In this document: positions 2,388 through 48,904 of the stretch, piece after piece | Layout: the number at the start of each line of letters is the position of its first letter | Position numbering within the stretch: position 1 is the first letter of the stretch | IMG/VR virus record: IMGVR_UViG_3300024308_000188 | Location: 1 to 64,000 of that record | Source of the DNA: a virus | Strand: one strand, 5' to 3' | Length of the DNA: 64,000 nt | Notes under the pieces: model-generated | The model's input: the letters and a program-made list of their open reading frames with translations, nothing else | Databases searched by the model: none | What the model was told of the DNA's origin: nothing | Made by a program: the position numbers and the translations under genes

Positions 2388-2747
2388 CTAATACTTAGCT
2401 GGAAGTTCGACTGTTTGACCTGCGTAACTGTGCGTACAATCAGGCAAATATCGAATCTTTCCATTCTCAATAAAAGAATGACACACTGTTCTAAAGCGCG
2501 GATCATTCAAAACCAAATTTCTTCCATTAGGTAATATAGAAATTCTGTCGTATTCTTCTTCAAGCTCAGGACTTAAATCTGGATTACATGATTTAATATC
2601 CACTGAAGGTTTAAGAGTAGGTGTATTCAGATTAAAATTGAATACCCATTTAGGATTCTTTGTAACATCTATGTTGACAGCATGTTCAAGATTACAACCT
2701 ACACAGAAAAATATAACAGACTTATCTACAACTTTTGCTCGGAACAT
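2388..2747 (-). CDS. DUF6527-like small zinc-binding-type phage protein
   Basis: 119 residues. The arrangement FFCVGC (Cys15, Cys18), KWVFNFNLNTPTLKPSV in the middle, and VCHSF...GKIRYLPDCTHSYAGQTVELP at the end (Cys89, His90, Cys104, His106) follows the small phage proteins grouped as DUF6527, often mislabelled 'ammonia monooxygenase'. The Cys/His pattern suggests one metal site. The molecular function of that family is not something I can state. The start ATG overlaps the upstream stop by one base (TAATG), showing translational coupling. Confidence 0.65.
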   Translation of the reverse strand: MFRAKVVDKSVIFFCVGCNLEHAVNIDVTKNPKWVFNFNLNTPTLKPSVDIKSCNPDLSPELEEEYDRISILPNGRNLVLNDPRFRTVCHSFIENGKIRYLPDCTHSYAGQTVELPAKY

Positions 2748-3139
2748 TAAAATCTGTCCTCTGGTTTACGATTAGCTAAAATGATTTTATTTTCGGCTAT
2801 ACTGGCTGCCAGTGTTATCTTTGACCAATGTTTGTAAGTAGGTGAATTGTTGAATTCTGCATTTACTGCCGCAATTTGAGGTAAGCGTCTGGTTACTCCA
2901 CGAGTACGCATTAACTCAACACAAGCTAATGCTAAATTTTCGTCACGTTCATCTTTAGCATCGTAGTACCAGTCAATAAGATCTCGAATCATATTTATCA
3001 ACTGCTTTTCCTGCATGTTCCCTACAACAATAGCATCACGCAACGGCCAAAATTTCCGTAACTCTTCGCGCTGTGAGTATTCACTTAACGGTTTATTTCT
3101 CAGATTGGTGGCCTTAGCTACAAATACTTTAACTTTCAT
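2747..3139 (-). CDS. Hypothetical protein with variant N-terminal tag
   Basis: 130 residues, not recognised. It begins MKVKVFVAKATNLRNK, a variant of the short N-terminal sequence shared by many proteins in this window. The rest is mainly helical and charged. The start overlaps the upstream stop by 4 bases (ATGA) and the SD AAGGAC lies within the upstream gene. If the tag is a head-targeting signal, this would be a small internal virion protein; that is inference. Confidence 0.75.
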   Translation of the reverse strand: MKVKVFVAKATNLRNKPLSEYSQREELRKFWPLRDAIVVGNMQEKQLINMIRDLIDWYYDAKDERDENLALACVELMRTRGVTRRLPQIAAVNAEFNNSPTYKHWSKITLAASIAENKIILANRKPEDRF

Positions 3140-3456
3140 TTCATGTCCTTAAAAACAATTCTATAAATTGGTTGAACAAAAGCGTTTTTGTTTCCATCAA
3201 AACGACATACGTAGTTTTCGTAAAAATCAAGACCATCCATGTTAATACGTTTACTAAGTTCTGCCTTAATAAGTTCACTTATTCTGTGAAGCCTGTTGGT
3301 ATTTATAGCAGGTCTTTCGTGCTGTAGACTTGGATTCTCGGCAACGCTATGTAGATAGTGCATGTATTCACGAGTTTCTTTGTTATAAGCATCAAATACT
3401 TTTTGAAACCTAGAATCAATGGCAACTGATGGGACATTTTTAAAATTTATTTTCAT
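3136..3456 (-). CDS. Hypothetical small protein
   Basis: 106 residues, not recognised. It begins MKINFKNVPSVAIDSRF; the first residues resemble the shared tag only weakly, lacking the S-x-S part. The middle is a predicted helix rich in charged residues. It overlaps the genes on both sides by 4 bases (ATGA-type coupling), so it belongs to a translationally coupled group of six small genes (2388-4360). Confidence 0.75.
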   Translation of the reverse strand: MKINFKNVPSVAIDSRFQKVFDAYNKETREYMHYLHSVAENPSLQHERPAINTNRLHRISELIKAELSKRINMDGLDFYENYVCRFDGNKNAFVQPIYRIVFKDMK

Positions 3457-3922: not shown

Positions 3923-4360
3923 TCAGATAAACTCGATGAATGCTGTTTTGTATCTGTATTGAAATTTGTAACCGTCACCGTTTTTAGTGAATAGACCACG
4001 ATCTACAAGATATTCAACACCTATATAATTAAAGTGATTGTATTCACCGATTTTTGCTTTAATGCTCGCTAAAGCAACTTGCATATTCGTTTTACTTACA
4101 TTCAATCCGGCTATCAATCCAGCGATAGTGTCATCGATGTCTTGAAGTAATATGCTTTCATCATCCAATCTGTATCGACGAATTACTTCTTTTTTAGCCT
4201 GTTGTTCAACCTTAAGCATTTCGTCATCATAGTAGAATTCAGCAACAGATCTTGCATAAGATTCAAACATGCCTTTTGTTGAACTTGGCATGTCCAGAAC
4301 GAAATTTCTGGCACGAAACCCGTTAAAAGAATCACTAATACCGTATTGTATTCGAGCCAT
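3923..4360 (-). CDS. Hypothetical protein, possible paralogue of its downstream neighbour
   Basis: 145 residues, not recognised. SD CTGGAG lies 8 bases before the ATG. The N-terminal part (MARIQYGISDSFNGFRARNF) is followed by helices, and a short C-terminal winged-helix-like end (VEYLVDRGLFTKNGDGYKF) resembles the end of the adjacent 3453-3908 gene. No enzymatic motif is seen. It lies in the run of small coupled genes downstream of the tail module. Confidence 0.75.
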   Translation of the reverse strand: MARIQYGISDSFNGFRARNFVLDMPSSTKGMFESYARSVAEFYYDDEMLKVEQQAKKEVIRRYRLDDESILLQDIDDTIAGLIAGLNVSKTNMQVALASIKAKIGEYNHFNYIGVEYLVDRGLFTKNGDGYKFQYRYKTAFIEFI

Positions 4361-4374
4361 CTTATACTCCAGCC

Positions 4375-4638
4375 TTATTGTTTTGTCAGCATCTTAAGAT
4401 CTACAATGTTACCCAACAAAGATTCTTTGACTATCTTAAGTGCATCAATCCTTCCAACAATTTCATGAGCCATCATTTCACTGGCTTGTGTGCCTCGACT
4501 CTTAAGAGCGCGTAATTTTTTATCACTTGCCTTAATCGCATCATTTATAAGTTGCAGTGTTTCAGGAGCTGTTGTAGTTAGTGCAGCTATTTGTTTTGCA
4601 CTAGCTGATTCAGATAGCAAAAGTTGCTTCTTTTTCAT
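4375..4638 (-). CDS. Small tagged protein (putative internal head protein)
   Basis: 87 residues. It begins MKKKQLLLSESASAKQ: a clear copy of the shared N-terminal tag including the L-S-E-S sequence that would suit cleavage by the phage prohead protease between Glu10 and Ser11. The rest is helical and lysine-rich. Its start overlaps the upstream stop by 4 bases, and the SD AAAGGG is inside that gene. A role as packaged internal protein is inferred only from the tag. Confidence 0.75.
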   Translation of the reverse strand: MKKKQLLLSESASAKQIAALTTTAPETLQLINDAIKASDKKLRALKSRGTQASEMMAHEIVGRIDALKIVKESLLGNIVDLKMLTKQ

Positions 4639-5129
4639 AATGATTTATTTCCCTTTATAATGCTCTTTTTAAGAATACCAACAGTTCTTATGTCGTTGTA
4701 TTTTCCTTCAAGTGCATCTATATGAGTGTAGCCAGACTTCAATAACAATTCAGCAAGTTTTGGCTCAGACTGATACCACTCCCAAACTTTTTTATGGCCA
4801 CCATGATTTAATGAATTTAACTCATTGTACAGTGTCAGCGCTTTATCTTTTGATACAAGGTTAAATTTTTTATAGGAATCTATAATACCTTGTTTTATTC
4901 TGGAAATGATTTCACTAAAGGTCACTTGAGCATCAAGTGTACGAAAGCCAAAATTAAATCCTTGACCTAAGTTTATGTCATATTCCATTAAATGTCCGCC
5001 ATATTGCAAAGCATATTTGGCATCTTGTGTGACCCAAATTATATGAGTTCTATTTTGATATTCTTCAGAAAACTTTCCTTCAATACCACGATAGAATTTT
5101 TCACCAGATAAGCTGATTAAAATTTTCAT
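4635..5129 (-). CDS. Tagged ADP-ribosyltransferase-like protein (tentative)
   Basis: 164 residues. It begins with the tag MKILISLSG, followed at once by FYRGIEG (Arg14). Then come WVTQDAKYALQYGG (residues 32-45), a strand pair (LMEYDINLG) and, near the end, LLKSGYTHIDALEGKYND with Glu141. This order (R-G, a T/S strand with a following A-x-x-Y-G helix, and a GY-D-x-[LI] strand near the C-terminus) recalls small ADP-ribosyltransferase-fold toxins and phage enzymes. The full R-S-E triad cannot be proven by eye. T4 Alt, a head-packaged injected ART, gives a precedent for a tagged ART. It could instead be an unrelated alpha/beta protein. Confidence 0.4.
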   Translation of the reverse strand: MKILISLSGEKFYRGIEGKFSEEYQNRTHIIWVTQDAKYALQYGGHLMEYDINLGQGFNFGFRTLDAQVTFSEIISRIKQGIIDSYKKFNLVSKDKALTLYNELNSLNHGGHKKVWEWYQSEPKLAELLLKSGYTHIDALEGKYNDIRTVGILKKSIIKGNKSL

Positions 5130-6333: not shown

Positions 6334-8001
6334 TTAATCCTTAGCTACTTTGTTGATTGCTTTTTGAATAGTGCTGTTTGGACGAGCACCAACTTTCTCA
6401 AACCATTCTTTAATTAAGTTTGGATCAATATAGTTTTGAATTGCAGTAGTAGCAGTTACTTTTTCACCGTTAACATGACCTAATTCTTCACCAACTTTTT
6501 TCATGGCCTCAATAAACCATTTATTTATTTCGGCTTCAGATTTACCACGGAAAGCCGGAGCTTTATCAAGAACAGCACCTGCAACAATGGTTCCACGGGC
6601 ATGTCGGAATTTGTGAAGTGTAATGCTTTGATCTACACCTAACGAACGCAAATATTTATTTACGTAAGTACCATTCACATGTTTAACAGCACGACCGAAT
6701 TGAGCAGTCATTATTAAATCATTTGGCTTTTTACCTTCAACCAAACTATCTAATAACCCCTTCATCATTTTGCCTTCAGGCTTATTAGTATGTATTTTAT
6801 GAATTTGTTTAACGCCACTCTTGCCCAAATAATTCAATGTGAAATATCCGGTTCCACGAGAAGTATAGTTTTTACATACCAACGTGCTAATGCCTTGACC
6901 ACTTTGACCAGCAGTACCAATACGAGCAGAGGTTTCGTAAATAAGTTCAAGAATTAAAGCAGATACAGTGTCAGCATCTTCATAATGACCTGTCTTTAAT
7001 TCATGCAACCATTTTTTACGGGCAGCCGGAAGATCTTTTATTAGTGCATCAACAGTGTTAAACTTTTTACCCGCCTTCTCTTTGCGATACTCAACTGTGT
7101 AAATACGTTGAGGCTGCCCAGTACCAAACAGTGGATAGTGAAGGAAAACATAAGTGTTATCCAATTCAGGATCGTACTTAGGATTTGCTTCTAAGCGGCC
7201 TGTTATAGCACCATCAAGTTTTACTTTGTTCGTGTTGTAATAAGCACCGTTTTCATCAACGTAACCATTGAATCCTTCAGGCACTTTGCTACGAATTTTG
7301 TTCTGCTTTAGATAGCGAACTAACTCTGTAGCCTTAACAAGCTTTTCACCACTTTGTCTGACAAAGCTTAATGTTGCTTGCTTTGTCCCTTCGTTAATGT
7401 CCCGCATTAATTTCAGGAAAACTTTATACTGTTCAGGTTTTTTGTCACGTAACGAATTTTTATCTTCGACAGTTAAGTCGGCTTCAGGCTTACCGAAGAT
7501 TTTACGGCAGAATTTATTAAGTTCTGCAACTAAATCTTGTTGGTTACTTTGCTCAGCATCTTCGTGAAGGAAAACAGCTGTTAGATCAGGATCACCAAGT
7601 TTACTAATATGACGAGTAAGATTTTTTAAACTTGCGTCACTCCCACGAAGTACAATACCCATCATATACTTCAAAAGATCAATATGGTCTTTGGTAAGAT
7701 CCAACTCTTTTGTAAGCATACCAGCTTTTTCACGTTCTTTCAGAACACGAATTAAAGCATCAAGATCCCAATCCATATCGGCATTGTCGTTTAAGCAGCC
7801 ATTTACTATAGGATTGAAAGTTGATCTTGGAATACGAAATCTTTTCAAAAATTCTTCGGCGTCTGAATTCCACTTACGGATCTTAGATTTAACTTTAGCG
7901 CCCAAAGGTTCTTCAATCAAACACACCATTATTGAACTGGCTACAAGTTTGATGAATGATTCTGTAGAGTTTTTACTCACAGCAGAAATTGAAATAATCA
8001 T
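6334..8001 (-). CDS. DNA topoisomerase IB-like / tyrosine recombinase-fold protein with N-terminal tag
   Basis: 555 residues. The C-terminal domain carries the signature residues of topoisomerase IB and the related tyrosine recombinases in order: Arg360 in ETSARIGTAG, Lys394 in YLGKSGV (the beta-hairpin lysine), HKFRHARG with Arg466, His509 in ELGHVNG and the nucleophile candidate Tyr524 in QNYIDPNLI. The spacing and the GKSGV and NYIDP sequences favour topoisomerase IB, which relaxes supercoils by a 3'-phosphotyrosine intermediate. The ~350 residues before it are helical and unfamiliar. It begins MIISISAVSKNSTESF, a variant of the shared tag, so it may be packaged in the virion. SD TTAAGGA. 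Confidence 0.75.
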   Translation of the reverse strand: MIISISAVSKNSTESFIKLVASSIMVCLIEEPLGAKVKSKIRKWNSDAEEFLKRFRIPRSTFNPIVNGCLNDNADMDWDLDALIRVLKEREKAGMLTKELDLTKDHIDLLKYMMGIVLRGSDASLKNLTRHISKLGDPDLTAVFLHEDAEQSNQQDLVAELNKFCRKIFGKPEADLTVEDKNSLRDKKPEQYKVFLKLMRDINEGTKQATLSFVRQSGEKLVKATELVRYLKQNKIRSKVPEGFNGYVDENGAYYNTNKVKLDGAITGRLEANPKYDPELDNTYVFLHYPLFGTGQPQRIYTVEYRKEKAGKKFNTVDALIKDLPAARKKWLHELKTGHYEDADTVSALILELIYETSARIGTAGQSGQGISTLVCKNYTSRGTGYFTLNYLGKSGVKQIHKIHTNKPEGKMMKGLLDSLVEGKKPNDLIMTAQFGRAVKHVNGTYVNKYLRSLGVDQSITLHKFRHARGTIVAGAVLDKAPAFRGKSEAEINKWFIEAMKKVGEELGHVNGEKVTATTAIQNYIDPNLIKEWFEKVGARPNSTIQKAINKVAKD

Positions 8002-11640: not shown

Positions 11641-12189
11641 TTAATCTATCCAAATTTGATCTTTAGGCATTTCTAAGACATTTCCTTTGGAACCATCTTC
11701 GTTCAATACCATGACTCGACATTTCTCGCTGAGCGGCAGAATATAAAGCAAAATACCCTTCTTCTTTTGACCAGCTGGCCCGTATGTAACAGGTAGGTGC
11801 AAGTTATCTTGCTCACGACCACGAACAGCAATACGAATATTCAAAGAATGTACGCCTTCGTAATCTTTAATGATTTCACCTATCCATTTACGTGCGGCCA
11901 ATACTTGTTCATCAGCAACTTTTAAAATACTGCAATTGCCAAAGAACATTAGCAGACCTTGCTTTAAATCTTTCGTATCTAATTGAGTTTCTGGAAGATT
12001 AGGGCCAGCTGAACTCACAAGATAATTCTTTTGTCCCATCTTAGCAAAGTTTGCAGTAGCATTTTTCATTTTATTTGTCCAACTTACTGCATACATATTT
12101 CTGTCAGCACGTTGTACTTTAAGATGCAGAGGCCCGAACGACTGCTCAATACGAATAGCCTTACTGGATAGACTAATTAATATTCTCAT
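11641..12189 (-). CDS. Tagged hypothetical protein
   Basis: 182 residues, not recognised. It starts MRILISLSSKAIRIEQ, a good copy of the shared N-terminal tag. The remainder is alpha/beta, with a strand-rich middle and a conserved-looking end (LLYILPLSEKCRVMVLNEDG). Its ATG overlaps the upstream stop by 4 bases. It precedes the 931-residue protein by nine bases and is probably translated with it. A role as head-internal cargo is inferred from the tag only. Confidence 0.75.
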   Translation of the reverse strand: MRILISLSSKAIRIEQSFGPLHLKVQRADRNMYAVSWTNKMKNATANFAKMGQKNYLVSSAGPNLPETQLDTKDLKQGLLMFFGNCSILKVADEQVLAARKWIGEIIKDYEGVHSLNIRIAVRGREQDNLHLPVTYGPAGQKKKGILLYILPLSEKCRVMVLNEDGSKGNVLEMPKDQIWID

Positions 12190-14636: not shown

Positions 14637-15059
14637 TCAAGCCTTCTCAATTCGTGACATAATAGCTTTGTGAGTATAGGAAACGTAAGTAAAATACTCA
14701 GCCTTTATATCTGTTTTCCCTGCACGATAAATAATGCTAGAATTTTGATCGTAAATTTGAGTACGTCTGAATTTCTCAGCAGGATCATAAAGAATTTGAG
14801 TACCAAGAACAATGATTGCTCTTATGTTATCGCCAGATTCTGTTTCCAGCACAACAAGCTTTGTTTTTGCGTCATTAATATTTTGCATTTCAATGACGCA
14901 AAGTGCAAGCGCTTTAACTCGTGAGTCACGTTCACTGGCTAAGAGTCTGCGATCTTTAATTAAGAGAACAGCGCGTGTAAGTAAAGATGAAATATCAAGC
15001 GAACGAGGTTCAACACTACTAATGGAAAGAAAGCGTTTTAATGGTATTAGAATATTCAT
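14637..15059 (-). CDS. Hypothetical protein with tag-like N-terminus
   Basis: 140 residues, not recognised. With the second ATG as start (better spacing from the SD TTGGAG) it begins MNILIPLKRFLSISSVEP, a longer variant of the shared tag in which the S-x-S-S part comes after an insertion. The rest is alpha/beta (SRVKALALCVIEMQN, LVVLETESGDNIRAIIVLG). A small virion-internal role is possible but unproven. Confidence 0.7.
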   Translation of the reverse strand: MNILIPLKRFLSISSVEPRSLDISSLLTRAVLLIKDRRLLASERDSRVKALALCVIEMQNINDAKTKLVVLETESGDNIRAIIVLGTQILYDPAEKFRRTQIYDQNSSIIYRAGKTDIKAEYFTYVSYTHKAIMSRIEKA

Positions 15060-27699: not shown

Positions 27700-28029
27700 T
27701 CACATAAGCCGAGGCTTTGTTTTTTGAATCTGTTCCATCTTCTCAATCTGTTGCTTCAATCTTTTGTACTGTAGATAAAGCGAAATTGTTTCAGATTTCT
27801 TTTTAGATAGTTTTTTAGGATCACCTAAGCGGAAAGTTGTTGCATTCAAGCGTTGTTTTATTTGCGCTCTGATGTTACTTAACTTGCGTTTTAGAATGTC
27901 CAAGCGTTTAAAAGGTTTCGGAAGTTTTCTACGAGGCCCAAAGCGTCTTTTAGGACGGTGAAGTCTTAAGACAGGTTTCGTGCTTCCTATGTCCTCATAA
28001 CCAACAGACAAACTCACTAAAATTTTCAT
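27700..28029 (-). CDS. Small, very basic tagged protein
   Basis: 109 residues. It begins MKILVSLSVGYEDIGS, an excellent tag copy, followed by a strongly basic sequence rich in Arg, Lys and Pro (RPKRRFGPRRKLPKPFKR) and long helices. A much longer frame continues upstream into the tail tube gene, but the tag and position after the hairpin support the ATG at 28029. The composition suggests nucleic acid binding, as in phage internal proteins; this is inferred. The SD is weak (GGGCC). Confidence 0.7.
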   Translation of the reverse strand: MKILVSLSVGYEDIGSTKPVLRLHRPKRRFGPRRKLPKPFKRLDILKRKLSNIRAQIKQRLNATTFRLGDPKKLSKKKSETISLYLQYKRLKQQIEKMEQIQKTKPRLM

Positions 28030-33506: not shown

Positions 33507-35840
33507 TTACGAATCTAAAAGACTCAGGTAACGATTTGTTTGTGGTTTGTGAGCAGATTCAGATTGAAGAGTTTGAGGCTTAACCGTGGTTAAGTTAGAC
33601 AAACGATCTTCCACTGTATTACTTTCACTTGTTAAGCCACCGCGATTCACAGAAGCAGAAACTACAAGTTGTGTAATTTCGTCTTGAGTATCTTCTGATT
33701 TTTCCAGAAGTTCACGAGCTTGACCTAAAAGGATTTCGCTGTAACGATCACCGTGTTGAGCAAAAGCATCTGAAACCAATGAGTCAGCGTTACGAACTCC
33801 AGCAGAAGATAATGCACTAATCAGAGCATCAGCAACTGGGTTTCTTACATTTGCAAAAACATGACGGTTAATGCCTAAAGCCGAAGTAGCTAATGCTGAC
33901 ATTAAACGATCCATACGATGTTCCATATCTGCATTTATTTCAGCTTGAACATTTGCAGAGTATGATTGCATTTGTGTCTCGACTTCACGAACACGGCTTT
34001 CGCTGCGTTTAATGATTTCGTTAGACACAACAGCATCAACATCAAGGTCTGGACTGATACGTTCAAAGTTAAATTCAGCTAATGCACTTTCAATGCCTTC
34101 AGCTTTCGCATGAGCCATGATAGCGGAACCGAATTTAGCGCTTTCAAAAATATCTTTCAGTGCAGCTTTATCAGCGACACTTGACTCAGACGCCATAGCT
34201 ACAGGAAGTTTTCCATAGAATGCTGTCCAAGTTGATTGACCTTCAATTTTACCGCAGTGAGCAACATGGAATTTATCAACAGATAAATCTTCCGTTGCAG
34301 AAATTGCAGATAACAAATCGACGTCGAATTCCATTACAGGAGATTCAGAACTTTCTGATTCTAAATCCAGACCTTCGATGTCACCGTAGTCACCTTCGTC
34401 ATCTAATTCAGTATCTTCGATTTCTTCTTCAGATTCTTCTTCAGATTCATCCATTTCAATGGACTCTTCTTCAGTTTCGTCATCTTCCATTTCTTCATCT
34501 TCTGATTCGGCCAGAAGTGCGGCAATGTCGGAATCCAATTCAATGTCATCAGAACTTTCTGATTCCATATCGTCTGAATCTAAAGCAGACATTTCTTGAT
34601 CAAGAGCATCTAAATCATACTCTTCATCTTCGTCAGCACTTACAGATTCAAACTCGTCGTTTTCATCATAAGATTCTGATTCAAGAATGTCATCGCTTGA
34701 TAAATCTTCTTCAGCATCTGGATCTAAATCTTCATCCAGATCGCTGTCAGAACTTTCAGATTCCAGTTCTTCTTCGAATTCTAAATCAGAGGCAAGATCT
34801 GCTTCGAGGTCGTCATAATTAACTTCCTCCATTTCTTCCTCTTCTTCGGTTTCTTCTTCGTCACCTGATTCAGCAAGTAACGCAGCGATTTCAGCATCTA
34901 ACTCTTCGTCAGCGCTTTCGCTTGAGATACCTAATTCGTTTTCCAGTTCTTCGATTTCAGCCGACAGTGCTTCCAGTTCTTCATCTTCAGAATCATCTTC
35001 TGAGTGTGAATGGAAATCAGCCGGATCTAACAAACCGCTGGCACAACGAGGACAGTTCAATACAGAACTTGAGGTACTGATTACGTGTGCGCCACAACCG
35101 TCAACATCTGAACAAATATAATGTTCAGCTTCTACGTTGTCGCTACCGTCAGAACTTTCACTCTGCATAGTAATTTCAGAGGCTTCAGCTTCTTCGATGT
35201 CTGGCGATCCGGTTAATGGATCATAATCAAATGAATCACTGGCATGAGTTACAAAAACCGAATGGCCTGAAGTAATAACACGTTGACTTTGATTTGAAGC
35301 TACGGCACGGAAGTTTTCAAGTGCTTCATCTAAGTTATCACCTGAAACTACAATCATGCCTTCAGAAGCTTCAGCTTCTAAATCTTCGTATTCAACATCA
35401 TCCATTTCTTCTTCAGTTTCTTCTTCCGGTTCTTCATCTTCCATCGATACCAGATCTTCATCATCTGATAAATCGACTCCTTCATCTTCTTCAGGCATAG
35501 CGCTTGAACATGAAGGACAGAAAGTGACAGGGCAGTCAGCAACAACATGCTCACCGCAACCATCAGAACATACGCCGTAGAAAACATCTACGGCTCCAGT
35601 ACGAGCGCTGGCTTCAGCAGAAAATTCACCATTGTCCAAAGCATCAAGATCAAAATCTCCTGTGTCTGGATTATATAAAGATGTTGCTGACGCATGAGTA
35701 TAAAACTCATTTGTACCGTCTGTGAAAGCTTGAAGGCTTTCTCCAGAAGCAACAGCTGTATATTTAGCGATAGCCTCTGCCTCACTTGCGCCATGAACTA
35801 TGATAGCCTGTTTTGAGGCTTTCATTTTTGTCTTGATCAT
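33507..35840 (-). CDS. Acidic scaffold/prohead-core-like protein with twin zinc-ribbon repeats
   Basis: 777 residues from the ATG with the SD CAGGAG. Two repeat units (~10-125 and ~165-280) each consist of a strand/helix domain with a THAS sequence followed by a zinc ribbon (CSDGCGEHV...CPSC and CSDVDGCGAHV...CPRC). Residues ~280-515 are extremely acidic (Asp/Glu/Ser). The last ~260 residues are helical (VREVETQMQSYSANVQAEIN). Many S-E-S sites of the kind proposed for the prohead protease are scattered through it, including LTSESN and LQSESA near the C-terminus. Its position just upstream of the capsid genes and its composition fit a cleavable scaffold. Rubredoxin-like ribbons in a scaffold are unusual. 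Confidence 0.5.
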   Translation of the reverse strand: MIKTKMKASKQAIIVHGASEAEAIAKYTAVASGESLQAFTDGTNEFYTHASATSLYNPDTGDFDLDALDNGEFSAEASARTGAVDVFYGVCSDGCGEHVVADCPVTFCPSCSSAMPEEDEGVDLSDDEDLVSMEDEEPEEETEEEMDDVEYEDLEAEASEGMIVVSGDNLDEALENFRAVASNQSQRVITSGHSVFVTHASDSFDYDPLTGSPDIEEAEASEITMQSESSDGSDNVEAEHYICSDVDGCGAHVISTSSSVLNCPRCASGLLDPADFHSHSEDDSEDEELEALSAEIEELENELGISSESADEELDAEIAALLAESGDEEETEEEEEMEEVNYDDLEADLASDLEFEEELESESSDSDLDEDLDPDAEEDLSSDDILESESYDENDEFESVSADEDEEYDLDALDQEMSALDSDDMESESSDDIELDSDIAALLAESEDEEMEDDETEEESIEMDESEEESEEEIEDTELDDEGDYGDIEGLDLESESSESPVMEFDVDLLSAISATEDLSVDKFHVAHCGKIEGQSTWTAFYGKLPVAMASESSVADKAALKDIFESAKFGSAIMAHAKAEGIESALAEFNFERISPDLDVDAVVSNEIIKRSESRVREVETQMQSYSANVQAEINADMEHRMDRLMSALATSALGINRHVFANVRNPVADALISALSSAGVRNADSLVSDAFAQHGDRYSEILLGQARELLEKSEDTQDEITQLVVSASVNRGGLTSESNTVEDRLSNLTTVKPQTLQSESAHKPQTNRYLSLLDS

Positions 35841-35968: not shown

Positions 35969-37012
35969 TTAAGACAATTGCTTCATAATTGCTCTAAGCT
36001 TTTTATGTCCAGGTTTGCCAATATTGACGTATCTTCTATTCATTCCTGTAGTGTAAGCTAAAATACCTAAGCTTGACATTAAAGTTTTAGCTGCTTTTGC
36101 TTTTGCTTCTTCACCAAAATTTACTTGAATGTTTCCGTGACCATCATCTTTAGCCTTCATAAATAAAGCAAGCGTTTTTTTATTTGCTTCATCTAATTTT
36201 GGTTTTTTAGCCATTTCAGATCTTATAGATTTCAGGTCTTTCAGGTAGTAGTTAAGTTCAATACTGTCACCTAAATGTTTGCTTTTGTTTTCAGGTGAAG
36301 TTAAAACATCGTACATCTTTTGCATTTTAGCTATAGCAGCATCAACAGCAGCTAAAGTTTCTTTTGTTGGAATACCTTCGGACTCAAGTTTTTTGTCCAA
36401 GGCTTTCCATACTTTGATTGCGTCATTAACAGGATCTTTTGTTGGAACATAAAGTTCACTTACTTTAGATACTTTAACCGGAGTATTGTCTCCAATATCA
36501 TGTTTGGTTTCTTTTGTATCAGGCTTACCATTATTAGATTGGCTCTCAGACTTAACAAGAGAAAGTAATTTTCTTCCGCTTAAACGTGGGCCAACATACT
36601 GACGAGTAACCTTACCGCCGTCTTTATGGAAAAGCCACCAACCTGGAGCCATCATTCCAGGAGCACGTTTTTTAACGCCCATCTTTGTAGAGGCTGCATT
36701 ATTTTTTGCACCAGGTGCTTTAGCTGCCGCTTCTGCTTGCAATTCATCTTCAGGTTCAGAGTAAGCTTCTGTACTTACATTGAAATCTTCCGATTTAGAA
36801 ACCATTTTATTGCTAAACATTTTCACATTCATAGATGGTGAAAATTTAGTTTCGTCTTTGAAACGGGCTAAAGCAAAATCGCCTTGTCTTGTTTTGAAAA
36901 CATAACGTCCTGATTCCGCAAAAACTAAACGGCCTTTAGCTTGTTCCAAAACATACTGAACACTGTTCGGCACGGCTGGCTTCTTTGCCGAAACGCTCAA
37001 CGAGATAATCAT
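35969..37012 (-). CDS. Basic internal-type protein, paralogue of the upstream gene
   Basis: 347 residues, basic. It begins MIISLSVSAKKPAVPN, a tag variant. Residues ~15-160 are clearly homologous to the gene at 37045: PNSVQYVLEQAKGRLVFAES-GRYVFK, the SPSMNVKMF block, APGAKN, KMGVKKRAPG, GWWLFHKDGGKV and SGRKLLSLV. The rest is helical with KLDEANKKTLALFMKAKDDG and a basic end. Probably a DNA-associated head-internal protein, by composition and position between scaffold and protease. SD TTAAGGA. The shared domain is not one I can name. Confidence 0.7.
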   Translation of the reverse strand: MIISLSVSAKKPAVPNSVQYVLEQAKGRLVFAESGRYVFKTRQGDFALARFKDETKFSPSMNVKMFSNKMVSKSEDFNVSTEAYSEPEDELQAEAAAKAPGAKNNAASTKMGVKKRAPGMMAPGWWLFHKDGGKVTRQYVGPRLSGRKLLSLVKSESQSNNGKPDTKETKHDIGDNTPVKVSKVSELYVPTKDPVNDAIKVWKALDKKLESEGIPTKETLAAVDAAIAKMQKMYDVLTSPENKSKHLGDSIELNYYLKDLKSIRSEMAKKPKLDEANKKTLALFMKAKDDGHGNIQVNFGEEAKAKAAKTLMSSLGILAYTTGMNRRYVNIGKPGHKKLRAIMKQLS

Positions 37013-39689: not shown

Positions 39690-40346
39690 TTAACCAAAAT
39701 TCTTGAAAACCTGAGCAAACACTTTCATGTAATCTTTACGAATGCCGTGTTTGTATATACGAATAAGAATAGGTTCATATAACTCAAGAACTTTATGCAA
39801 TTCGGTTACAGCAGCCGAATACGTAACTTGAGATAAAGAACTTTGACCGCTGTTTGACATATCCAAATAAAACTTAGCGCAAGCGTATAACAGATTAGCT
39901 ATATTTTCGCTTTTAAAGTTTGCGATCATTCTAACACTATCAAGTAACTCTCTGCGAAGTTTTGAAGCTACTTCTATATACTGGGTTTCATTATTCGCTT
40001 GTATTAGTGAAGGATTGGCAATAAGTGAGGTAGAACATTTTGCTATAAATTCTTTAACCCACTCGCTATCTTTACTTTTCCACGGAGAAGTACCGTATAA
40101 AATTCTGCGTTTGAGATTTGAGATTTCAAGATCAAACTTTGCAACCTCTTCCTGAAGATTTCGTTTACGAGTATTAAAGCTTTTATCACTTTCTATTTCG
40201 TTTGCGTCCTGAGTTGTGGCGTTTACCACACGGTCGATTTCACCTAAAGCACGTACTACGGATTGACGCTCAAGGTACAACGCGCAAATTCTTTGAAACT
40301 CTTCATCTTCTTGACTTGATTCTGAAATGAATACACGAATTTTCAT
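39690..40346 (-). CDS. Tagged helical protein (putative internal head protein)
   Basis: 218 residues. It begins MKIRVFISESSQEDEE: one of the clearest tag copies, with the I-S-E-S cleavage-like sequence at residues 7-10. The rest is almost entirely helical (EVAKFDLEISNLKRRIL, LLDSVRMIANFKSENIANLLYACAKFYLD). No enzyme motif. Downstream of a terminator and the structured intergenic region at 40400-40541. Confidence 0.75.
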   Translation of the reverse strand: MKIRVFISESSQEDEEFQRICALYLERQSVVRALGEIDRVVNATTQDANEIESDKSFNTRKRNLQEEVAKFDLEISNLKRRILYGTSPWKSKDSEWVKEFIAKCSTSLIANPSLIQANNETQYIEVASKLRRELLDSVRMIANFKSENIANLLYACAKFYLDMSNSGQSSLSQVTYSAAVTELHKVLELYEPILIRIYKHGIRKDYMKVFAQVFKNFG

Positions 40347-43682: not shown

Positions 43683-44510
43683 TCATACATCAAACTTTTT
43701 CTGTGCAGCAGCTGAAGTAAAGAACCAATTATATCCTTTAAGGACTCTTTTGGTTACAGGATCTTTAGCTGACCACGTAAGAATCTTTGAGCGTTTACCT
43801 GCTAATACAGCAAAAATCGAAGCGGTTTCACCGATCTTTGGTCTGACTGAACGGGCTTCACTTAAAGTTTTTTTCTTTGTTTCTTTACCTTCAATAACAA
43901 CTAAATAACTATAGCCTTGTGCTTTAAGTTCAGCACGTTTCTTAGCGGATTCCGCATCGTGTATAGCATCGTTACGCTTTTTCTGAACTCCAGCTAATTC
44001 TTCACGTTGTTTTTGAAGTTTAGCTATTTGTTCATCTAAGGCTTTTATGCGTTGTTTGTCTTTTGCCTCAGTTTTGTTAAAGAATGCTGTTGTATCTTTA
44101 GAATTTGTAGTAAGTGTTATACTCTGACTTCCAACATCTTCTTTTGTTATTTTGTTTCCGATTAAACTCAAAAGTTTAGCTTTAGTTAATGTTAAAGTTG
44201 ATAAATTGCCGGGATGCTTACGTGTAAGAGAATTGTCACGCTCTGCAACAGCAACTATGGATTTAACTGATCCAGATTTAGTGCTATTCACTTCGGTTAT
44301 ACGATAGTTAGTGGCCGCCTTTGTTATAACAGGAGGCATCTTTTTGTAGCGCTCTATAGTTTCTTTCGGAATAAAGCCAATGCTCGGTCTTGGTGGAGTC
44401 TTTTTAGTTGATACTATTGTATATAAAGTAAAAGTACCGCCAACAACAATTTTCTTTTCTTGGGCAGCAGTTAAATCTGCGCTCTCAGACAACATAACTT
44501 GAATTTTCAT
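43683..44510 (-). CDS. Tagged hypothetical protein with coiled coil
   Basis: 275 residues. It begins MKIQVMLSESADLTAAQ, a complete tag including L-S-E-S-A. Next a beta-rich region (IVVGGTFTLYTIVSTKKTPPRPSIGF), then a coiled coil (about 165-205: RIKALDEQIAKLQKQREELA), and a final beta domain (GYSYLVVIEGKETKKKTL). Basic overall. SD TAGGAA. Not identified; putative internal head protein. Confidence 0.75.
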   Translation of the reverse strand: MKIQVMLSESADLTAAQEKKIVVGGTFTLYTIVSTKKTPPRPSIGFIPKETIERYKKMPPVITKAATNYRITEVNSTKSGSVKSIVAVAERDNSLTRKHPGNLSTLTLTKAKLLSLIGNKITKEDVGSQSITLTTNSKDTTAFFNKTEAKDKQRIKALDEQIAKLQKQREELAGVQKKRNDAIHDAESAKKRAELKAQGYSYLVVIEGKETKKKTLSEARSVRPKIGETASIFAVLAGKRSKILTWSAKDPVTKRVLKGYNWFFTSAAAQKKFDV

Positions 44511-44528: not shown

Positions 44529-44927
44529 TTATTTAAGAGAAGCACTTTTGGTGCCTTTCTTAGATTTAAGAGTAGCCTTTTCGCCGTTCAACAGTTTTGC
44601 CAAAGCAGCCGCAGATAAAGGTTTAATTTCATCTTTTGAATGTTTACCTTCTGGAGCAATCAACACTCTTTTTAATTTTCCGTTGCCAGCTATTTCAACT
44701 TCTTTGATGACAAGAGTATATTTGTTTAGTTGTGGAGTTACTTTGTTATCAGCCTTACGTGTGTAAGCACCTGTAACAACCATAAGAAGTTTCGTTCCTT
44801 TGGTCATAAGTTTTTTGATTTGTGACGAAGTAAATCTGTCGTCAGCCAACTGTCTGAATTTAGAGTCAGATGCTTTAAGTCTGGCCAAAGAGTACGAACT
44901 TTGCGAAACGAATACTTTGATTTTCAT
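44529..44927 (-). CDS. Small tagged basic protein
   Basis: 132 residues. It begins MKIKVFVSQSSYSLAR (tag with S-Q-S-S). A central beta region (KLLMVVTGAYTRKADNK, KYTLVIKEVEIAGNGKLKRVLIAP) follows and the C-terminus is a lysine-rich tail (GEKATLKSKKGTKSASLK). SD AAGGAA. It lies nine bases after the metallopeptidase gene. Putative internal head protein. Confidence 0.75.
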   Translation of the reverse strand: MKIKVFVSQSSYSLARLKASDSKFRQLADDRFTSSQIKKLMTKGTKLLMVVTGAYTRKADNKVTPQLNKYTLVIKEVEIAGNGKLKRVLIAPEGKHSKDEIKPLSAAALAKLLNGEKATLKSKKGTKSASLK

Positions 44928-44936: not shown

Positions 44937-45857
44937 TTAAATTTTAATTAAGCGATCACCAGTTGGATTTCCGTTAATTAAAAAGTTGTTATCGAAGTAT
45001 TGTTTTGCAAGTTCCCAACCATCTGTGCAGCTTAAACCACGTTCAGATTTACCGTGAACCATATACTCACACAATGTAGCCCAAGCTTCTTCATACCAAG
45101 GATAAGTATATCCTGCATGATTAAATTGATCTGGATGCAAACGTCTTGCAACCAAAGCTTGTTTGTAACGCTCCATCTGAGATTGACGTACAATGCCATC
45201 ATACATTAAAAAGTGAGCAAGCTCGTGCGTGATAACTTGAGCAAGGAATCCTGAAGTTATTGCACCTGAACGTAAGCCTTGAAGTTGATTGAAGTTCAGA
45301 ACAAGCAACTGACGCGCTTTTATAGAGGCATCGGTTTGACGACTGAAGCAAGTAGGTACTACATCAGATTTACACAGAATAAAATGATTTAAGTTGATCT
45401 TCTTCTTAAATCCTGTGTAATCTAAAGCTTGATTTACGGCCTTACGCTCAATGTCAGCTAATGGGTAGCACCATTCATTTCTTCTGCGTTCAAGATTTTC
45501 CTCAAGAAAACCTATTGCTAATGGATGCGCTTTTTTAATTGCAGGAGGTTGAAGAACAACACGGTAGTTGTAATTCAATGTTGCACTTTCGCTAACAATA
45601 TCCTTAGAGTCAATGGCAACAGGTTTAATGTTGTTTAGTGTAATCCAAACAGAATCGAACAAAGCAGGATCGCCATTAAGCATTAAGCTTTTTTCAACAA
45701 GATCTCGCAAAGTACGTTCATCAACTACAGCAACAGCGCCTTTGTCATCACGAATTTTAATACGTGAATCTAAGTACACATGCCAGAAATGATTACGCTC
45801 TATTTTAAACCATTCACCTAATTGGAATGGAGTATCTGAATTGTATCTGAATTCCAT
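44937..45857 (-). CDS. Zinc metallopeptidase (HExxH) next to the prohead protease
   Basis: 306 residues. VITHELAHFLMYDG (His211, Glu212, His215) is a typical zincin motif and PWYEEAWATLCEYMVHG (Glu256/Glu257, ~40 residues later) supplies a gluzincin-type third ligand with an E-x-x-x-[AG] neighbourhood. The preceding beta/helical domain (LNHFILCKSDVVPTCFSRQTD) fits a minimal M-type peptidase core. An internal IVSESATLN sequence (about 87-95) resembles the proposed cleavage site of the phage protease, so activation by processing is possible. The ATG overlaps the prohead protease stop by one base (TAATG). Confidence 0.7.
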   Translation of the reverse strand: MEFRYNSDTPFQLGEWFKIERNHFWHVYLDSRIKIRDDKGAVAVVDERTLRDLVEKSLMLNGDPALFDSVWITLNNIKPVAIDSKDIVSESATLNYNYRVVLQPPAIKKAHPLAIGFLEENLERRRNEWCYPLADIERKAVNQALDYTGFKKKINLNHFILCKSDVVPTCFSRQTDASIKARQLLVLNFNQLQGLRSGAITSGFLAQVITHELAHFLMYDGIVRQSQMERYKQALVARRLHPDQFNHAGYTYPWYEEAWATLCEYMVHGKSERGLSCTDGWELAKQYFDNNFLINGNPTGDRLIKI

Positions 45858-46651
45858 TAGCGCACCATCATAATGTTTTTAGGATCGTGTTGGTTACTTA
45901 CGTAAGCCGGATTTTCAACTTGGCTGCATTCAAAACCAGTTGAATCGTGACACCAACGGTAAACAATTTGCCCATCTTTCAAGTACGGCTTGCGACCTAA
46001 ACGAGTATGTGAACAAGTTAACATAGTGTCTTGGTGGGTAGTGTGGCCGCAATAACTGCAAGTGTAACTTGTGTAATAAAATCCTACGCTATGCGTATTG
46101 CATTCGTTTGTCAGAATGCGATTACAGATTTCAGGATCACGAGTACGATCATATGCCAACAGCAGAATTAATTTTGCGTGATTGTTACGGAAACCACGAA
46201 GCGGTTTTAAATAAGCATCTAAAATAATGCCACGCGCTTTGGTGTGATCCTGATTATCATGTTCGCGGAAAGTTGGTTTACCTTTGTAAGTTTTGTATGC
46301 TTGCATACCCAACTTAGGTTTGAACTGTAACAACTCACTCAAGCTTGCACTATCGCCATTTGTATTTGGCAGATCTGTGATTAATGCCGGAGTAGGAACC
46401 ATTACATAATCACGAATATCAGGACTTGTGTTGTAAACTTTTGCAGCGGCTGGAAGCCAAGCATTAACATCAAGTACAACACCCTCACAGCCACCAACCA
46501 TTTCTGGTTTAGCTGTGATTGCCATATTGTTTTTTGAAAGTTTGTGCAGATCTATACCGCGACCTTCACCTTCACGAACTGAATAACGGCCAATATCAAA
46601 AGAAGAAGATACAAACTTACCTATATCCGTATTTAACTTAACAGGAACCAT
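45857..46651 (-). CDS. Prohead maturation protease with C-terminal zinc ribbon
   Basis: 264 residues from the ATG with the SD AAGGAG, 13 bases after the upstream stop. The sequence PTFREHDNQDHTKARGIILDA (about 126-146, His131) and THSVGF (Ser188) show the His/Ser pair of herpesvirus-assemblin-fold prohead proteases. Next comes a Cys/His ribbon (CSYCGH...MLTCSH, Cys198, Cys201, Cys213, His215) and then VYRWCHDSTGFECSQVENPAYVS, typical of a large group of phage head proteases. It would cut scaffold, capsid arm and internal proteins. It opens the head module and is coupled to the metallopeptidase. Confidence 0.8.
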   Translation of the reverse strand: MVPVKLNTDIGKFVSSSFDIGRYSVREGEGRGIDLHKLSKNNMAITAKPEMVGGCEGVVLDVNAWLPAAAKVYNTSPDIRDYVMVPTPALITDLPNTNGDSASLSELLQFKPKLGMQAYKTYKGKPTFREHDNQDHTKARGIILDAYLKPLRGFRNNHAKLILLLAYDRTRDPEICNRILTNECNTHSVGFYYTSYTCSYCGHTTHQDTMLTCSHTRLGRKPYLKDGQIVYRWCHDSTGFECSQVENPAYVSNQHDPKNIMMVR

Positions 46652-46664
46652 TGTGTACTTCTCC

Positions 46665-47210
46665 TTAATCAATGTTTTCAGCAATTTGCTGCTCTAAGCG
46701 TTTTTGCTGAGCAAGCAACAGTGTGGGATTACGTTTAAATTTCTGACCATCAGTAAATATGTAATCAGAAATAAGATCGATGCCTTTATTTTGTTCGATA
46801 AAGTGTTTGCAAATAACGTCAAGATAAGCAAACATTTCTACAAGACTTGCAAGAGGAAATTCTTTACGTATTTCCAACTCAACACGGTTACGCAAACTAT
46901 TGAATAAGTTGTATAACTCGTGTTTGTTATTGTGGCCGCTTAAGCTTGCTTGATAAGCTTGCTGTAAACTTTCTAAATCGCTGGCAAGCTTTCCTTGAGT
47001 AAATTCACTGTTACCCGCAGGAACAACAGCGACTTTCATTTCTTTAAGTGCTTGCTTACCTAAGAAATCTATTTGCTCAACAGCTCTTTTAACATCAAGT
47101 TGTTGATTTGGCGGAAAGCATTGAAGTGCAGCCATATAAACAGGAGTCTGGTAGCCTTTTACAATAGCACTGACACCTGATGTACTTAAAAACAATTTAG
47201 CTTTTTTCAT
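46665..47210 (-). CDS. Tagged helical protein (head module)
   Basis: 181 residues. It begins MKKAKLFLSTSGVSAIV, a tag with S-T-S-G. The rest is helical (QLDVKRAVEQIDFLGKQALKEM, ELYNLFNSLRNRVELEIRKEF) with a basic end. The ATG overlaps the upstream stop by 4 bases (ATGA), and the SD AAGGAA lies in that gene. Not identified. The location directly before the protease suggests a core or internal head protein. Confidence 0.7.
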   Translation of the reverse strand: MKKAKLFLSTSGVSAIVKGYQTPVYMAALQCFPPNQQLDVKRAVEQIDFLGKQALKEMKVAVVPAGNSEFTQGKLASDLESLQQAYQASLSGHNNKHELYNLFNSLRNRVELEIRKEFPLASLVEMFAYLDVICKHFIEQNKGIDLISDYIFTDGQKFKRNPTLLLAQQKRLEQQIAENID

Positions 47211-48904
47211 AAAAATTCCTTGTCTATGTTCAATTTAGCCCAAGCATAACATTCATCAAATGTTTGTTTGATTGGCTGAACAAGATAAATTTTTCCGCGT
47301 TTGATAAGTGTGTACGGTTGATCATTTTTAATTGGACGACCTGAACGATATACGCTTTCGTCAAATCCATCCTCTAACACACATATCCATTTACGTGAAA
47401 ATTTTCCGCCGGTTGTTTTGTCAACACAACGAATATTTCCTATAATACGATTTCCAAAGCGTAAGTTATAGCGCCAGCGTTGATCAACAGGAAGTTTGGC
47501 GCATTCTTTATCGCAGCGTAGTGTAAGCTTTTTAGGCTTATCGTCAGAAACTTCAACATAAAGCTGTTCGTAATCTTCATCAGAGTCATCAGAACTATTG
47601 GACACAAGTTCTTCTATTTCTTGACGAGGACTTAAAACAGCGTCAAGTTCGTCATCGGATAAATCACTAAGCTTTGGTTGCCAACCTTCGGCCTTCATTT
47701 CTTCTATAGCAATGTATTCAGAGATCTTACGTGCAATCAAATCTAAATCTTGATCTTGTAACCACACAGCAAAATCAGCTGTTAAGAATTCAACAGGATC
47801 ATCTTCAATTTCTGCATCAGAAGATTTACTTTCCAATTCCTCTGGAGCTTTTTCAGAAGCAGGTTCTTCTTCCTCTAAACTTTTATGTGCATTTTCCAGC
47901 ATACGATCAAGTTCTGAATCGTCATCTTCAAAATCTAGATCGTCTTTTTCTTTAACTGGCTCAGTCTTAACTTCTTCCACTTTAGTTTCAGAAGGAACTG
48001 TCTCTTGTTGATTACTTGTATCAGTGCTTTCCTGCGCTTTGGTTTCAGTAGAGTTCTGTTCAACTTCAGCTGGATTTTCTTGCTCTTGTTGTGGAACAGG
48101 AATATCTTTTTTACGTGAACGTGGAATAGTTGATTTATAATCACGGAAACCAAGATAAGCGGCAGTCAATGCTCCAGCTATAACAGCAGCACCTGAAAAA
48201 ACTGCTACTAACGCACCTAAGCCTAATGCAACTTCAGCAAGACCAAAACCTACATCACGAGCAACTTGTTCACCTTTAGAATCATTCTTGGTACTCATTC
48301 CCTTAGATTTTGCTTTAAGGTAAGAACCTAATTCTTTTTTCTTTGCAGGTGATAATTGATCGCTTATGGCACTAGCAACAGATTTTACTTTATTGCTAAA
48401 TTTGGATGTCTGTTCTGCGATTGTAGATCTGACTTGTGGAAATTTATCGTTTGCTCTGCGATCAATTTCGTCACGAGTTACACGTTCTATAGCAACCGCT
48501 AATTCTTCTGGAGATCTTTTCTTACGTTTTAAAATTGGAGCAACAGCTTTACGTAATCTGCTAAAAATACTTTCCTTCTTTTTAGCAGGATCTACAGGAG
48601 TCAGTGGAGGAACCAAATCAACTTCAGGCTCTGGAACTTCAAGTTCCGCTATATCCTGATCAAGTTCTTCAGGTTCAACGTCAACTGCTTTATTCGCACG
48701 TTCCGCCTTCTTTTTAGCCAGACGTTTTTTCTGCGCTTCTTTTTCACGCAGGTATTTGGCAAGTTGACTTGTTTTGTGTTTTTCCAGATACTTCTTTTGC
48801 TGATTGGTGGATAATTTTTTCCACCAATCAGGCTCTTTAGTTATTTTTCTTGCGGATTCAGATACAAACAATGAATCCACTAGATCAAGTTGTACTTTCT
48901 TCAC
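47207..48904 (-). CDS. Tagged head protein with acidic region and hydrophobic (membrane-type) segment
   Basis: 565 residues starting at a GTG with the SD AGGAGA. It begins MKKVQLDLVDSLFVSESARK, a long form of the tag with V-S-E-S-A (Glu16), followed by the W-W-x-x-LS...H-x-x-SQ-x-AK motif shared with the 43043 protein. Residues ~218-252 form a strongly hydrophobic segment (GLAEVALGLGALVAVFSGAA...). Then come Pro/Glu/Thr-rich linkers, acidic stretches and a C-terminal beta domain. A membrane segment in a tagged head protein could serve DNA or protein delivery; this is inference. It overlaps the upstream gene by 20 bases. Confidence 0.7.
   Translation of the reverse strand: MKKVQLDLVDSLFVSESARKITKEPDWWKKLSTNQQKKYLEKHKTSQLAKYLREKEAQKKRLAKKKAERANKAVDVEPEELDQDIAELEVPEPEVDLVPPLTPVDPAKKKESIFSRLRKAVAPILKRKKRSPEELAVAIERVTRDEIDRRANDKFPQVRSTIAEQTSKFSNKVKSVASAISDQLSPAKKKELGSYLKAKSKGMSTKNDSKGEQVARDVGFGLAEVALGLGALVAVFSGAAVIAGALTAAYLGFRDYKSTIPRSRKKDIPVPQQEQENPAEVEQNSTETKAQESTDTSNQQETVPSETKVEEVKTEPVKEKDDLDFEDDDSELDRMLENAHKSLEEEEPASEKAPEELESKSSDAEIEDDPVEFLTADFAVWLQDQDLDLIARKISEYIAIEEMKAEGWQPKLSDLSDDELDAVLSPRQEIEELVSNSSDDSDEDYEQLYVEVSDDKPKKLTLRCDKECAKLPVDQRWRYNLRFGNRIIGNIRCVDKTTGGKFSRKWICVLEDGFDESVYRSGRPIKNDQPYTLIKRGKIYLVQPIKQTFDECYAWAKLNIDKEFL

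Follow-up and report, generated by a model that had tools for sequence, protein, structure and literature searches.

A Shared N-Terminal S-x-S Tag on Unrelated Proteins of a Jumbo Phage, Probably a Capsid-Targeting Propeptide with a Prohead-Protease Site

Seventeen proteins with unrelated bodies, encoded in the first 64 kb of the 214.5-kb virus record IMGVR_UViG_3300024308_000188 of IMG/VR (these 64,000 nucleotides are the window referred to below), open with a short hydrophobic stretch followed by S-x-S, often then by A or S, the middle residue being variable. Their genes are clustered, and the same core is present in the capsid protein, in a scaffold-like protein and, with exceptions, in the prohead protease, the change from serine to alanine among relatives being largely parallel in these proteins. 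The tag is probably, at a rough estimate of 0.76, a capsid-targeting propeptide, the S-x-S core of which is a prohead-protease site with serine or alanine in place of the glutamate of T4, phiKZ, and SPN3US. Judged by its sequence, the window phage is a contractile-tailed jumbo phage, kin of phage NCTB (46% identity for the tail sheath, 51% for the prohead protease) and of the group of PaBG, Lu11, Dickeya phage JA29, and Erwinia phages, the PaBG/Lu11/JA29-type group being named the Lupandier group in the accessible passages of PMC7412058. In the titles, abstract openings, and passages of open-access literature that were covered, subscription papers lying outside, neither a capsid-targeting tag nor a prohead-protease motif was found described for this phage group.

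Results

Tagged Genes of the Window

Nearly all window genes lie on the minus strand. The preliminary description of this DNA listed 18 starts, all of which head minus-strand reading frames of at least 87 codons; they comprise 13 clear tags, one with a deeper core (47207-48904), two variants (42519-42851 and 27013-27693), and two weak cases (2747-3139 and 14637-15059). The last two, entered there with a "perhaps", are weak candidates only (an A-x-A form, and S-x-S only at residues 12-14), and the list was incomplete, since 53381-55078 was missed. The tagged genes, the products of which are predicted cargo, and the two weak candidates are as follows, L009 being a relative.

53381..55078, minus strand: tagged, 565 residues, KMPT-N (PF20294, E 2.6e-13), MKKLRFNLNPLSVSNLLSLSAKY; homologues MLSQSATYDEA (JA29) and MNKNLKLFLSQSAKF (L009)
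47207..48904, minus strand: tagged, 565 residues, GTG start, VKKVQLDLVDSLFVSESARK, S-x-S deeper at residues 15-17, phrog_31537; L009 homologue MKKKCVEIKPFYSISARRE, 44% identity
46665..47210, minus strand: tagged, 181 residues, MKKAKLFLSTSG
44529..44927, minus strand: tagged, 132 residues, MKIKVFVSQSSY
43683..44510, minus strand: tagged, 275 residues, MKIQVMLSESAD; L009 homologue MKVFISHSAEF, 44% identity
43043..43645, minus strand: tagged, 200 residues, MKIKVFISSSNN, then a WFDELS...HPNSQYAK motif; L009 homologue MKITLVSTSKS, 67% identity
42519..42851, minus strand: tagged, 110 residues, DUF5754 (PF19058, E 3.1e-9), MKILVSLCTSVD, variant core MKILVSLCTSV; also matches phrog_220 "minor head protein and DNA pilot" (E 3.7e-15); L009 homologue MKKLTITLVSTSKS, 89% identity
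41833..42510, minus strand: tagged, 225 residues, MKVNILISESAS; L009 homologue MKIKVRLISTSAS, 78% over 99 residues
40555..41775, minus strand: tagged, 406 residues, MKIRVFTSTSAR
39690..40346, minus strand: tagged, 218 residues, MKIRVFISESSQ
35969..37012, minus strand: tagged, 347 residues, MIISLSVSAKK; homologues MIISISSRTS (L009) and MKIISISARS (NCTB)
27700..28029, minus strand: tagged, 109 residues, MKILVSLSVGYEDIG; NCTB homologue MKIFIDIPSESVTYEDIG, 36% identity
27013..27693, minus strand: tagged, 226 residues, KMPT-N (PF20294, E 3e-12), MLIVVSATNK, degenerate; homologues with canonical tags MLISLSAAIN (NCTB) and MLFFVSVSAP (JA29)
11641..12189, minus strand: tagged, 182 residues, MRILISLSSKA
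6334..8001, minus strand: tagged topoisomerase IB, 555 residues (PF01028, E 1.1e-15), MIISISAVSKN; tagged homologues in NCTB, PaBG, Lu11, and HRDY3
4635..5129, minus strand: tagged, 164 residues, MKILISLSGEK
4375..4638, minus strand: tagged, 87 residues, MKKKQLLLSESAS
2747..3139, minus strand: weak candidate, 130 residues, MKVKVFVAKATN, A-x-A form
14637..15059, minus strand: weak candidate, 140 residues, MNILIPLKRFLSISSVE

Counts were made on genes of at least 60 residues, 67 in the window and 103 from four further 20-kb stretches of this phage. A stricter pattern was matched by 11 of the 67 and 2 of the 103 (Fisher 0.00074), with 0.45 matches expected in the window from shuffled N-termini (maximum 4 in 1000 shuffles) and 4 among 1436 internal segments. 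The corresponding values for a looser pattern were 13/67 and 5/103 (Fisher 0.0041), with 1.9 expected from shuffling (maximum 8) and 25 among 1436 internal segments; its match at 3923-4360 is probably due to chance. The genes at 41833-42510 and 27700-28029 were left out of these counts, the gene caller having put their starts upstream. The shared tag claimed in the preliminary description is therefore real. It was also claimed there that what follows the tag is unrelated in each protein, and BLASTP agrees: when 20 proteins (19 tagged or weak, together with the untagged 37045-38745) were compared from residue 26 on, the single related pair was 35969 with 37045, and none was found among the 19 tagged or weak bodies. 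The core serines are encoded by both TCN and AGY codons, so the signal lies in the protein and not in the DNA, as had been argued against a translation-start effect. The best tag in the other stretches of the phage belongs to a very basic protein of 69 residues (G000:C1:107891-108100, equal to L051:7891-8100; MKVFVSVSKKKGG, MKVFVSVSKKKGGKKK).

The Same Core in Protease, Capsid Protein, and Probable Scaffold

The head genes in which the core recurs, and two landmarks, are located as follows.

45857..46651, minus strand: prohead protease, T4 gp21-like (phrog_18299, E 5.9e-88)
33507..35840, minus strand: probable scaffold/core protein, 777 residues, 28% Asp+Glu, repeated S-x-S[AS] sites
31629..32723, minus strand: major capsid protein, 364 residues; the N-arm junction reads FLSLSAEQ, with LSLSA at residues 72-76
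28659-30284: tail sheath (landmark)
28082-28633: tail tube (landmark)

The N-terminus of the window protease reads FVSSSFDI, with S-x-S at residues 15-17. S-x-S-F is present at this end in 26 of 32 distinct protease sequences, against 0.69 expected, with eight kinds of middle residue (S, K, T, R, A, Q, H, and E). In the structure model (predicted local distance difference test, pLDDT, of 79) residues 1-27 fall below 50, and the tail that carries the core is predicted to be disordered. The best structural match of the model is T4 gp21 (5jbl; VIA-align Z 9.6 over 139 residues, root-mean-square deviation 3.0), followed by herpesvirus proteases at Z 5.5 and below, which places it in the gp21/herpesvirus assemblin-type fold; Foldseek alone ranked gp21 first as well, weakly (E 0.18), and a search of PDB sequences with the protease profile gave no relevant match. 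His131 and Ser188, candidates for the catalytic His and Ser, are invariant in 21 aligned sequences.

Of 16 S-type sequences of the capsid protein, 15 have S-x-S in the variable linker that precedes the conserved capsid core, where 6.3 would be expected. These were drawn from 21 distinct rows less the near-duplicates L031, L032, and L037, with the A-type Lu11 and L043, and also HRDY3 and PaBG, set apart; a capsid-protein scan of IMG/VR recovered only 2 loci. The window phage has FLSLSAEQ in this linker, most phages of Erwinia type have VHS[TVQHE]S, and JA29 has EVSESH. Passages of PMC7412058 give a loss of about 20% of the mass of the PaBG capsid protein on maturation. A cut after residues 75-82 of that protein would, by our computation, remove 20.0-21.5%, and the window core, with LSLSA ending at residue 76 of 364, stands at about this site. 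The structure model of the capsid protein was poor (pLDDT 42.5) and was not used. A second conserved island, LS..GE[IFV]NA, is kept in the capsid propeptide of all six phages aligned (ILSESTGEVNA in JA29). A cut at this segment, near residues 32-40, was rejected as the source of the mass loss, since it removes only about one-tenth of the PaBG protein by residue count compared with the reported 20%; the segment may be a second cut site.

The scaffold-like gene is separated from the capsid gene by one virion gene and is labelled "ATPase" in PHROG and in the public annotation of relatives. The window protein holds 11 S[^S]S[ASG] sites where 3.0 would be expected, and in site enrichment the scaffold-like protein ranks first among proteins of at least 300 residues in six sets (n = 47, 79, 16, 9, 13, and 10, the window being the set of 47); the PaBG ranking set lacks the scaffold gene, which the gene caller missed. 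Across 10 S-type scaffold-like sequences the z score for this pattern is 3.0-8.4, and an S-x-E-type pattern is at or below expectation in all 10 (z -0.3 to -2.6). No Pfam family was matched by the protein of the window or of JA29, and that of Lu11 gave two sub-threshold matches. Being acidic, rich in sites, and without a Pfam domain, the protein fits a scaffold that gets chopped up, as T4 gp22 is, and the "ATPase" is probably a misnamed scaffold.

Tags in Relatives and the Change from S-x-S to A-x-A

Tags are carried by relatives as well. Those of NCTB are MKVFLSESKN, MLITLSRVA (topoisomerase IB), MLISISLGK, MKIISISARS, MKIVSISAQK, and MLISLSAAIN; JA29 has MLFFVSVSAP and MLSQSATYDE, with ISLSS at residues 17-21 of its gp136, and L009 has, among others, MKIFVSQSAEV, MKVFISHSAEF, and MKIKLFISESN. 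The protease of L008, a 319-kb IMG/VR contig, is 100% identical to that of the window, and matching tagged genes were seen over 20 kb. BLASTP of the bodies confirmed 14 of 16 pairs of window protein and relative, 2 giving no match, and the tag is kept on homologues of less than 50% identity. An unsupervised motif search on 111 N-termini (orthologues included) from four loci of relatives recovered [LI][IV]S[LET]S[ANKS] with a score of 190.9, compared with 114.4-140.8 for 20 shuffled sets at equal search effort. Outside the window the tag is uncommon, being carried by 2 of the 103 genes elsewhere in the phage and by none of eight annotated NCTB proteins checked (primase, RecA, gyrase A, gyrase B, DnaB, two DNA polymerase I, and a helicase); beyond the head region of NCTB it is found on 4 of 242 genes, with 4.6 expected. 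A possible tagged outlier there is an NCTB protein annotated as "FHA domain" and encoded at a distance from the head genes (L054:9071-9514), which starts MNILISLSSNP and in which Pfam found no domain. Near the capsid genes of Motura, BcepSauron, and Aura (L060-L062) no tag was seen, a result that is not firm, several genes being called on the wrong strand.

At S-type loci, 51 of 325 N-termini match phi-S-x-S (phi, hydrophobic) against 10.2 expected, and 1 matches phi-A-x-A against 5.2; at A-type loci, phi-A-x-A is matched by 13 of 115 against 3.0 expected and phi-S-x-S by 4 against 1.5. Among the 51, the core is followed by A in 22 and by S in 6. Their first core serine is found between residues 3 and 12, and overall anywhere from residue 3 to 18, a variable depth that is more in keeping with a recognition site than with a fixed N-terminal fold. 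The same change is seen in the other proteins. A[^A]A[ASG] reaches z 5.2-9.0 in five scaffold sequences, from Lu11, HRDY3 (two pieces), L043, and PaBG. In L043, A-x-A is found in protease (EAMAFS), capsid protein (IAVAN), scaffold, and cargo. The Lu11 and HRDY3 capsid proteins are A-type (VATAS, IATAS), as are their cargo and their scaffolds (z 5.2-7.1, with no S-x-S[ASG]), and the heptamer QVATASS is common to the capsid protein and scaffold of Lu11. The protease has A-x-A in 2 of 4 Lu11-like relatives (that of L041 reading IATAFS), and A-L-G in Lu11 and HRDY3. Topoisomerase IB starts MIISISAVSK in the window compared with MNVHIAVAAAS in Lu11 and MMEMSIAAAAPA in HRDY3. PaBG is mixed, its scaffold being mainly A-x-A with 5 S-x-S[ASG] against 1.3 expected; EAVAA recurs in PaBG gp83, in the L004 gene 26731-27660, and in the PaBG capsid linker. 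In a more distant lineage (L042:721-8083), neighbouring genes start MKKLVVRIIETSS, MRKIIVRFTETGS, MRKVVIASTG, and MRFVIIAGEE, and the adjoining protease, also present in L040, carries YASAHR; the series is perhaps a third tag dialect.

Identity and Mobility of the Predicted Cargo

The tagged families include topoisomerase IB, KMPT-N, and DUF5754 in the window and DarA_C proteins in NCTB, L010, and L012, that of NCTB also matching the PHROG "released from the phage upon host infection". Together with the DNA ligase of relatives described below, these are predicted to be packaged. DarA of phage P1 is an internal head protein, reportedly trimmed by the P1 protease, according to passages of PMC12810830. 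In PaBG, gp83 is listed as a virion protein (band 9, Table 1) in the accessible part of PMC7412058, and by our reading of the numbering it is O152_gp083, the tagged start of which is MLIKINLLEAVAAK. Its average mass is computed as 35,148.6 compared with 35,127.3 published; the PaBG capsid protein shows an equal offset of 0.06%, which would be explained if the published masses are monoisotopic.

The tag comes and goes as a module. Of 13 distinct N-termini of NAD+ DNA ligase, an enzyme recognised by its ligase domains, 6 are tagged, MKVRLSISASVSLKQL being one of them; the remaining 7 start MQISLKRL, and the open frame upstream held no tag in these 7. Untagged ligases of L023, the window, PaBG, and Lu11, which the pattern did not catch, lie outside the 13. 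Ligases that differ in the tag among Dickeya/Erwinia-type phages are at L021:4613-6583, L028:4654 onward, L003:36685-38655, and L019:4607 onward. The adjoining window homologues 35969-37012 and 37045-38745 are tagged and untagged, respectively, and in L009 this family is likewise represented by one member with a tag (15870) and one without (17735). The 4635-5129 protein was also considered as an ADP-ribosyltransferase (KFYRG...), for which Pfam and PDB sequences gave no support, and BLASTP found no match to the NCTB DarA_C protein.

Discussion

The preliminary description proposed a T4-like head-packaging tag. The clustering of many tagged genes with head genes around the protease, the rarity of the tag elsewhere, and the presence of internal or injected head proteins among the tagged families all speak for this; as a packaging tag only, the motif was described too narrowly, since the evidence points to a core that is a prohead-protease site common to protease, capsid protein, and probable scaffold. 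We infer the following course. The short hydrophobic N-terminus would carry the cargo protein into the prohead core. The [I/L/V]-S-x-S core, often followed by A or S, would be recognised by the prohead protease of T4 gp21 type, which, once the shell is assembled, would cut itself, the capsid N-arm, the acidic scaffold, and the cargo tags at the core. The cut would fall after the second serine, a position guessed from the P3-x-P1 spacing of phiKZ and SPN3US sites. The freed cargo would then lie in the DNA-filled head, ready for injection. In Lu11-like relatives A-x-A would serve as the code, and in PaBG mainly A-x-A. It further seems rather probable, with less assurance than the propeptide itself, that in PaBG/Lu11/NCTB-like jumbo phages a single peptide code (S-x-S/A-x-A after a hydrophobic start), co-evolving with the head machinery, serves both for addressing and for cutting, being read by a gp21-type protease that has lost the requirement for glutamate and gained or lost by enzymes.

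Several observations weigh against a protease-cut propeptide. Targeting and cleavage are inseparable by sequence. The proteases of Lu11 and HRDY3 carry A-L-G-F and not A-x-A, which lowers confidence both in the cut propeptide and in a single code; that of PaBG keeps S-R-S (MSRSFA), and 4 of the 32 proteases (L040, L042, L045, and L046) match neither form. The NCTB capsid linker has VTSA and not S-x-S, and the PaBG capsid cut was estimated from gels. The scaffold-like protein of NCTB leads narrowly (z 3.3 vs 3.1), that of the window is not enriched in the fuller phi-S-x-S (2 vs 3.3 expected), and A-x-A[ASG] is also mildly enriched in window-type scaffolds (window 6 vs 2.0, L059 7 vs 2.0). Some tags are degenerate (27013-27693 and 42519-42851), and untagged genes lie within the cluster (44937-45857, 38861-39679, and 37045-38745). 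The 51 S-type matches include at least 6 that do not represent tags: four are MK[ST]LSGSLAALA orthologues, one is an antisense frame, and one has a wrong start. Of the 13 A-type matches, 1 is the L041 protease itself and two repeat L043 in L044. The counts also include orthologues and are not independent. The evidence from virions comes from a single tagged protein, gp83 of the relative PaBG, in a table of only 14 bands, and neither virion proteomics nor N-terminal mapping was found for the window phage. Finally, the change from S to A represents one or few phylogenetic events and is incomplete; its strength therefore rests on the agreement of several proteins and on the hypervariable middle residue, not on the number of lineages.

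The best of the other explanations, itself unlikely, is that the tag is an uncleaved docking peptide, an N-terminal beta strand that binds scaffold, capsid, or portal and packages cargo, S-x-S being no protease site. Many tags are indeed short alternating strands (MLISLS, MIISIS), the middle residue is L or I in 17 of 51, and cleavage in the window phage is a deduction. Docking leaves unexplained, however, the core in the disordered N-terminus of the protease, at the capsid N-arm junction, and in the scaffold repeats, as well as the joint shift of capsid protein, scaffold, and cargo to A-x-A. There is only a slight probability that the N-terminus was inherited or acquired by descent or recombination and is no signal today: a tagged and an untagged paralogue do stand side by side (35969-37012 and 37045-38745), but the 19 bodies contain no related pair, the ligase tag is present in 6 of 13, and the tag persists below 50% identity. 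A shared N-terminal domain was rejected, the bodies being unrelated by BLASTP. Slighter still is the probability that the tag sends proteins elsewhere, to a replication compartment or membrane. Some tagged proteins act on DNA (topoisomerase IB, and DNA ligase in relatives), and passages of PMC13282480 describe sorting into a nucleus-like compartment in some jumbo phages. Against such a destination stand the rarity of the tag outside the head region (2/103, 4/242 in NCTB, 0/8 replication and recombination proteins), the core common to capsid protein, protease, and scaffold, and the match of the tagged families to internal or injected head proteins. That the peptide is without function and due to chance or to a translation-start effect (MK with A-rich codons) is scarcely credible: MK[IV] starts are frequent (10/67 in the window, 8/103 elsewhere), but shuffles, internal segments, the use of both serine codon families, the varying depth of the first core serine, and the S-to-A difference on topoisomerase homologues point to the protein and largely rule this out.

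The capsid-targeting sequence of T4, carried by internal proteins and Alt, resembles the probable propeptide in being a short N-terminal segment on otherwise unrelated proteins, with a targeting part followed by a cleavage part. The window phage also has a protease of gp21 type, predicted to share the fold. T4 protease sites follow the consensus [L/I]-x-E. The targeting sequence of IPIII unites both functions in ten residues, of which 4 and 7 are important in targeting and 8 and 10 in processing (passages of PMC9026906); the serines of MKIRVFISESS are residues 8 and 10. T4 gp21 cleaves after Glu, as stated in the part of PMC5694885 consulted. In the tags described here any residue may stand in the middle, the conserved pair is S-x-S or A-x-A, and the sequences do not fit a cut after Glu; 17 window proteins are tagged, and the core recurs in the scaffold-like protein. 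A Glu-dependent site of T4 type (I-S-E, cut before S) was rejected as the general rule, since E is the middle residue in only 10 of 51 S-type N-termini. The tag is thus like the T4 sequence in form but departs from its known rule, because Glu is replaced by Ser/Ala at matching spacing.

The proteases of phiKZ and SPN3US cut after S/A-x-E and A-x-E (passages of PMC9026906 and PMC10052503). There, too, P3 is small, P2 is free, and a single protease processes the capsid protein, itself, and internal proteins, but P1 is Glu, and neither tags nor scaffolds here conform to S/A-x-E. In SPN3US, two of the N-terminal propeptides have 20 and 24 residues, the rest being 111-254 residues long, and a short tag common to many unrelated proteins is not described in those passages. 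In P1, the N-terminus of DarB suffices for the packaging of a reporter, the peptide required being longer than 9 residues and no longer than 30, and BLAST gave no consensus among Dar N-termini (passages of PMC9024508), unlike the tags here; among relatives of the window phage, DarA_C proteins carry the tag. A further difference is the cleavage of the P1 capsid protein, which according to an abstract falls between E120 and S121. Polyvalent or injected phage proteins share the domains KMPT-N and DarA_C with tagged proteins. To our knowledge, these families are defined by their domains and not by a common N-terminal tag.

If the propeptide reading is true, the proteins that a jumbo phage packs and injects can be listed from sequence alone, also in uncultured phages, and many genes of no assigned role become testable injected proteins. 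A new prohead-protease specificity is predicted, and a conserved "ATPase" gene would be reread as scaffold; enzymes such as DNA ligase and topoisomerase IB would be recruited into or released from virions by a movable tag, and a short peptide would be a candidate for loading foreign proteins into large phage heads.

Additional Observations

A second common motif, approximately W[WF]xxLSxxAxxxYIxxHPxSxYAK, follows the tag in the window proteins 43043-43645 and 47207-48904, in L002:3554-5005, and in L009:17247-17630. A similar stretch is found near the start of a BcepSauron protein (L061:17540 onward).

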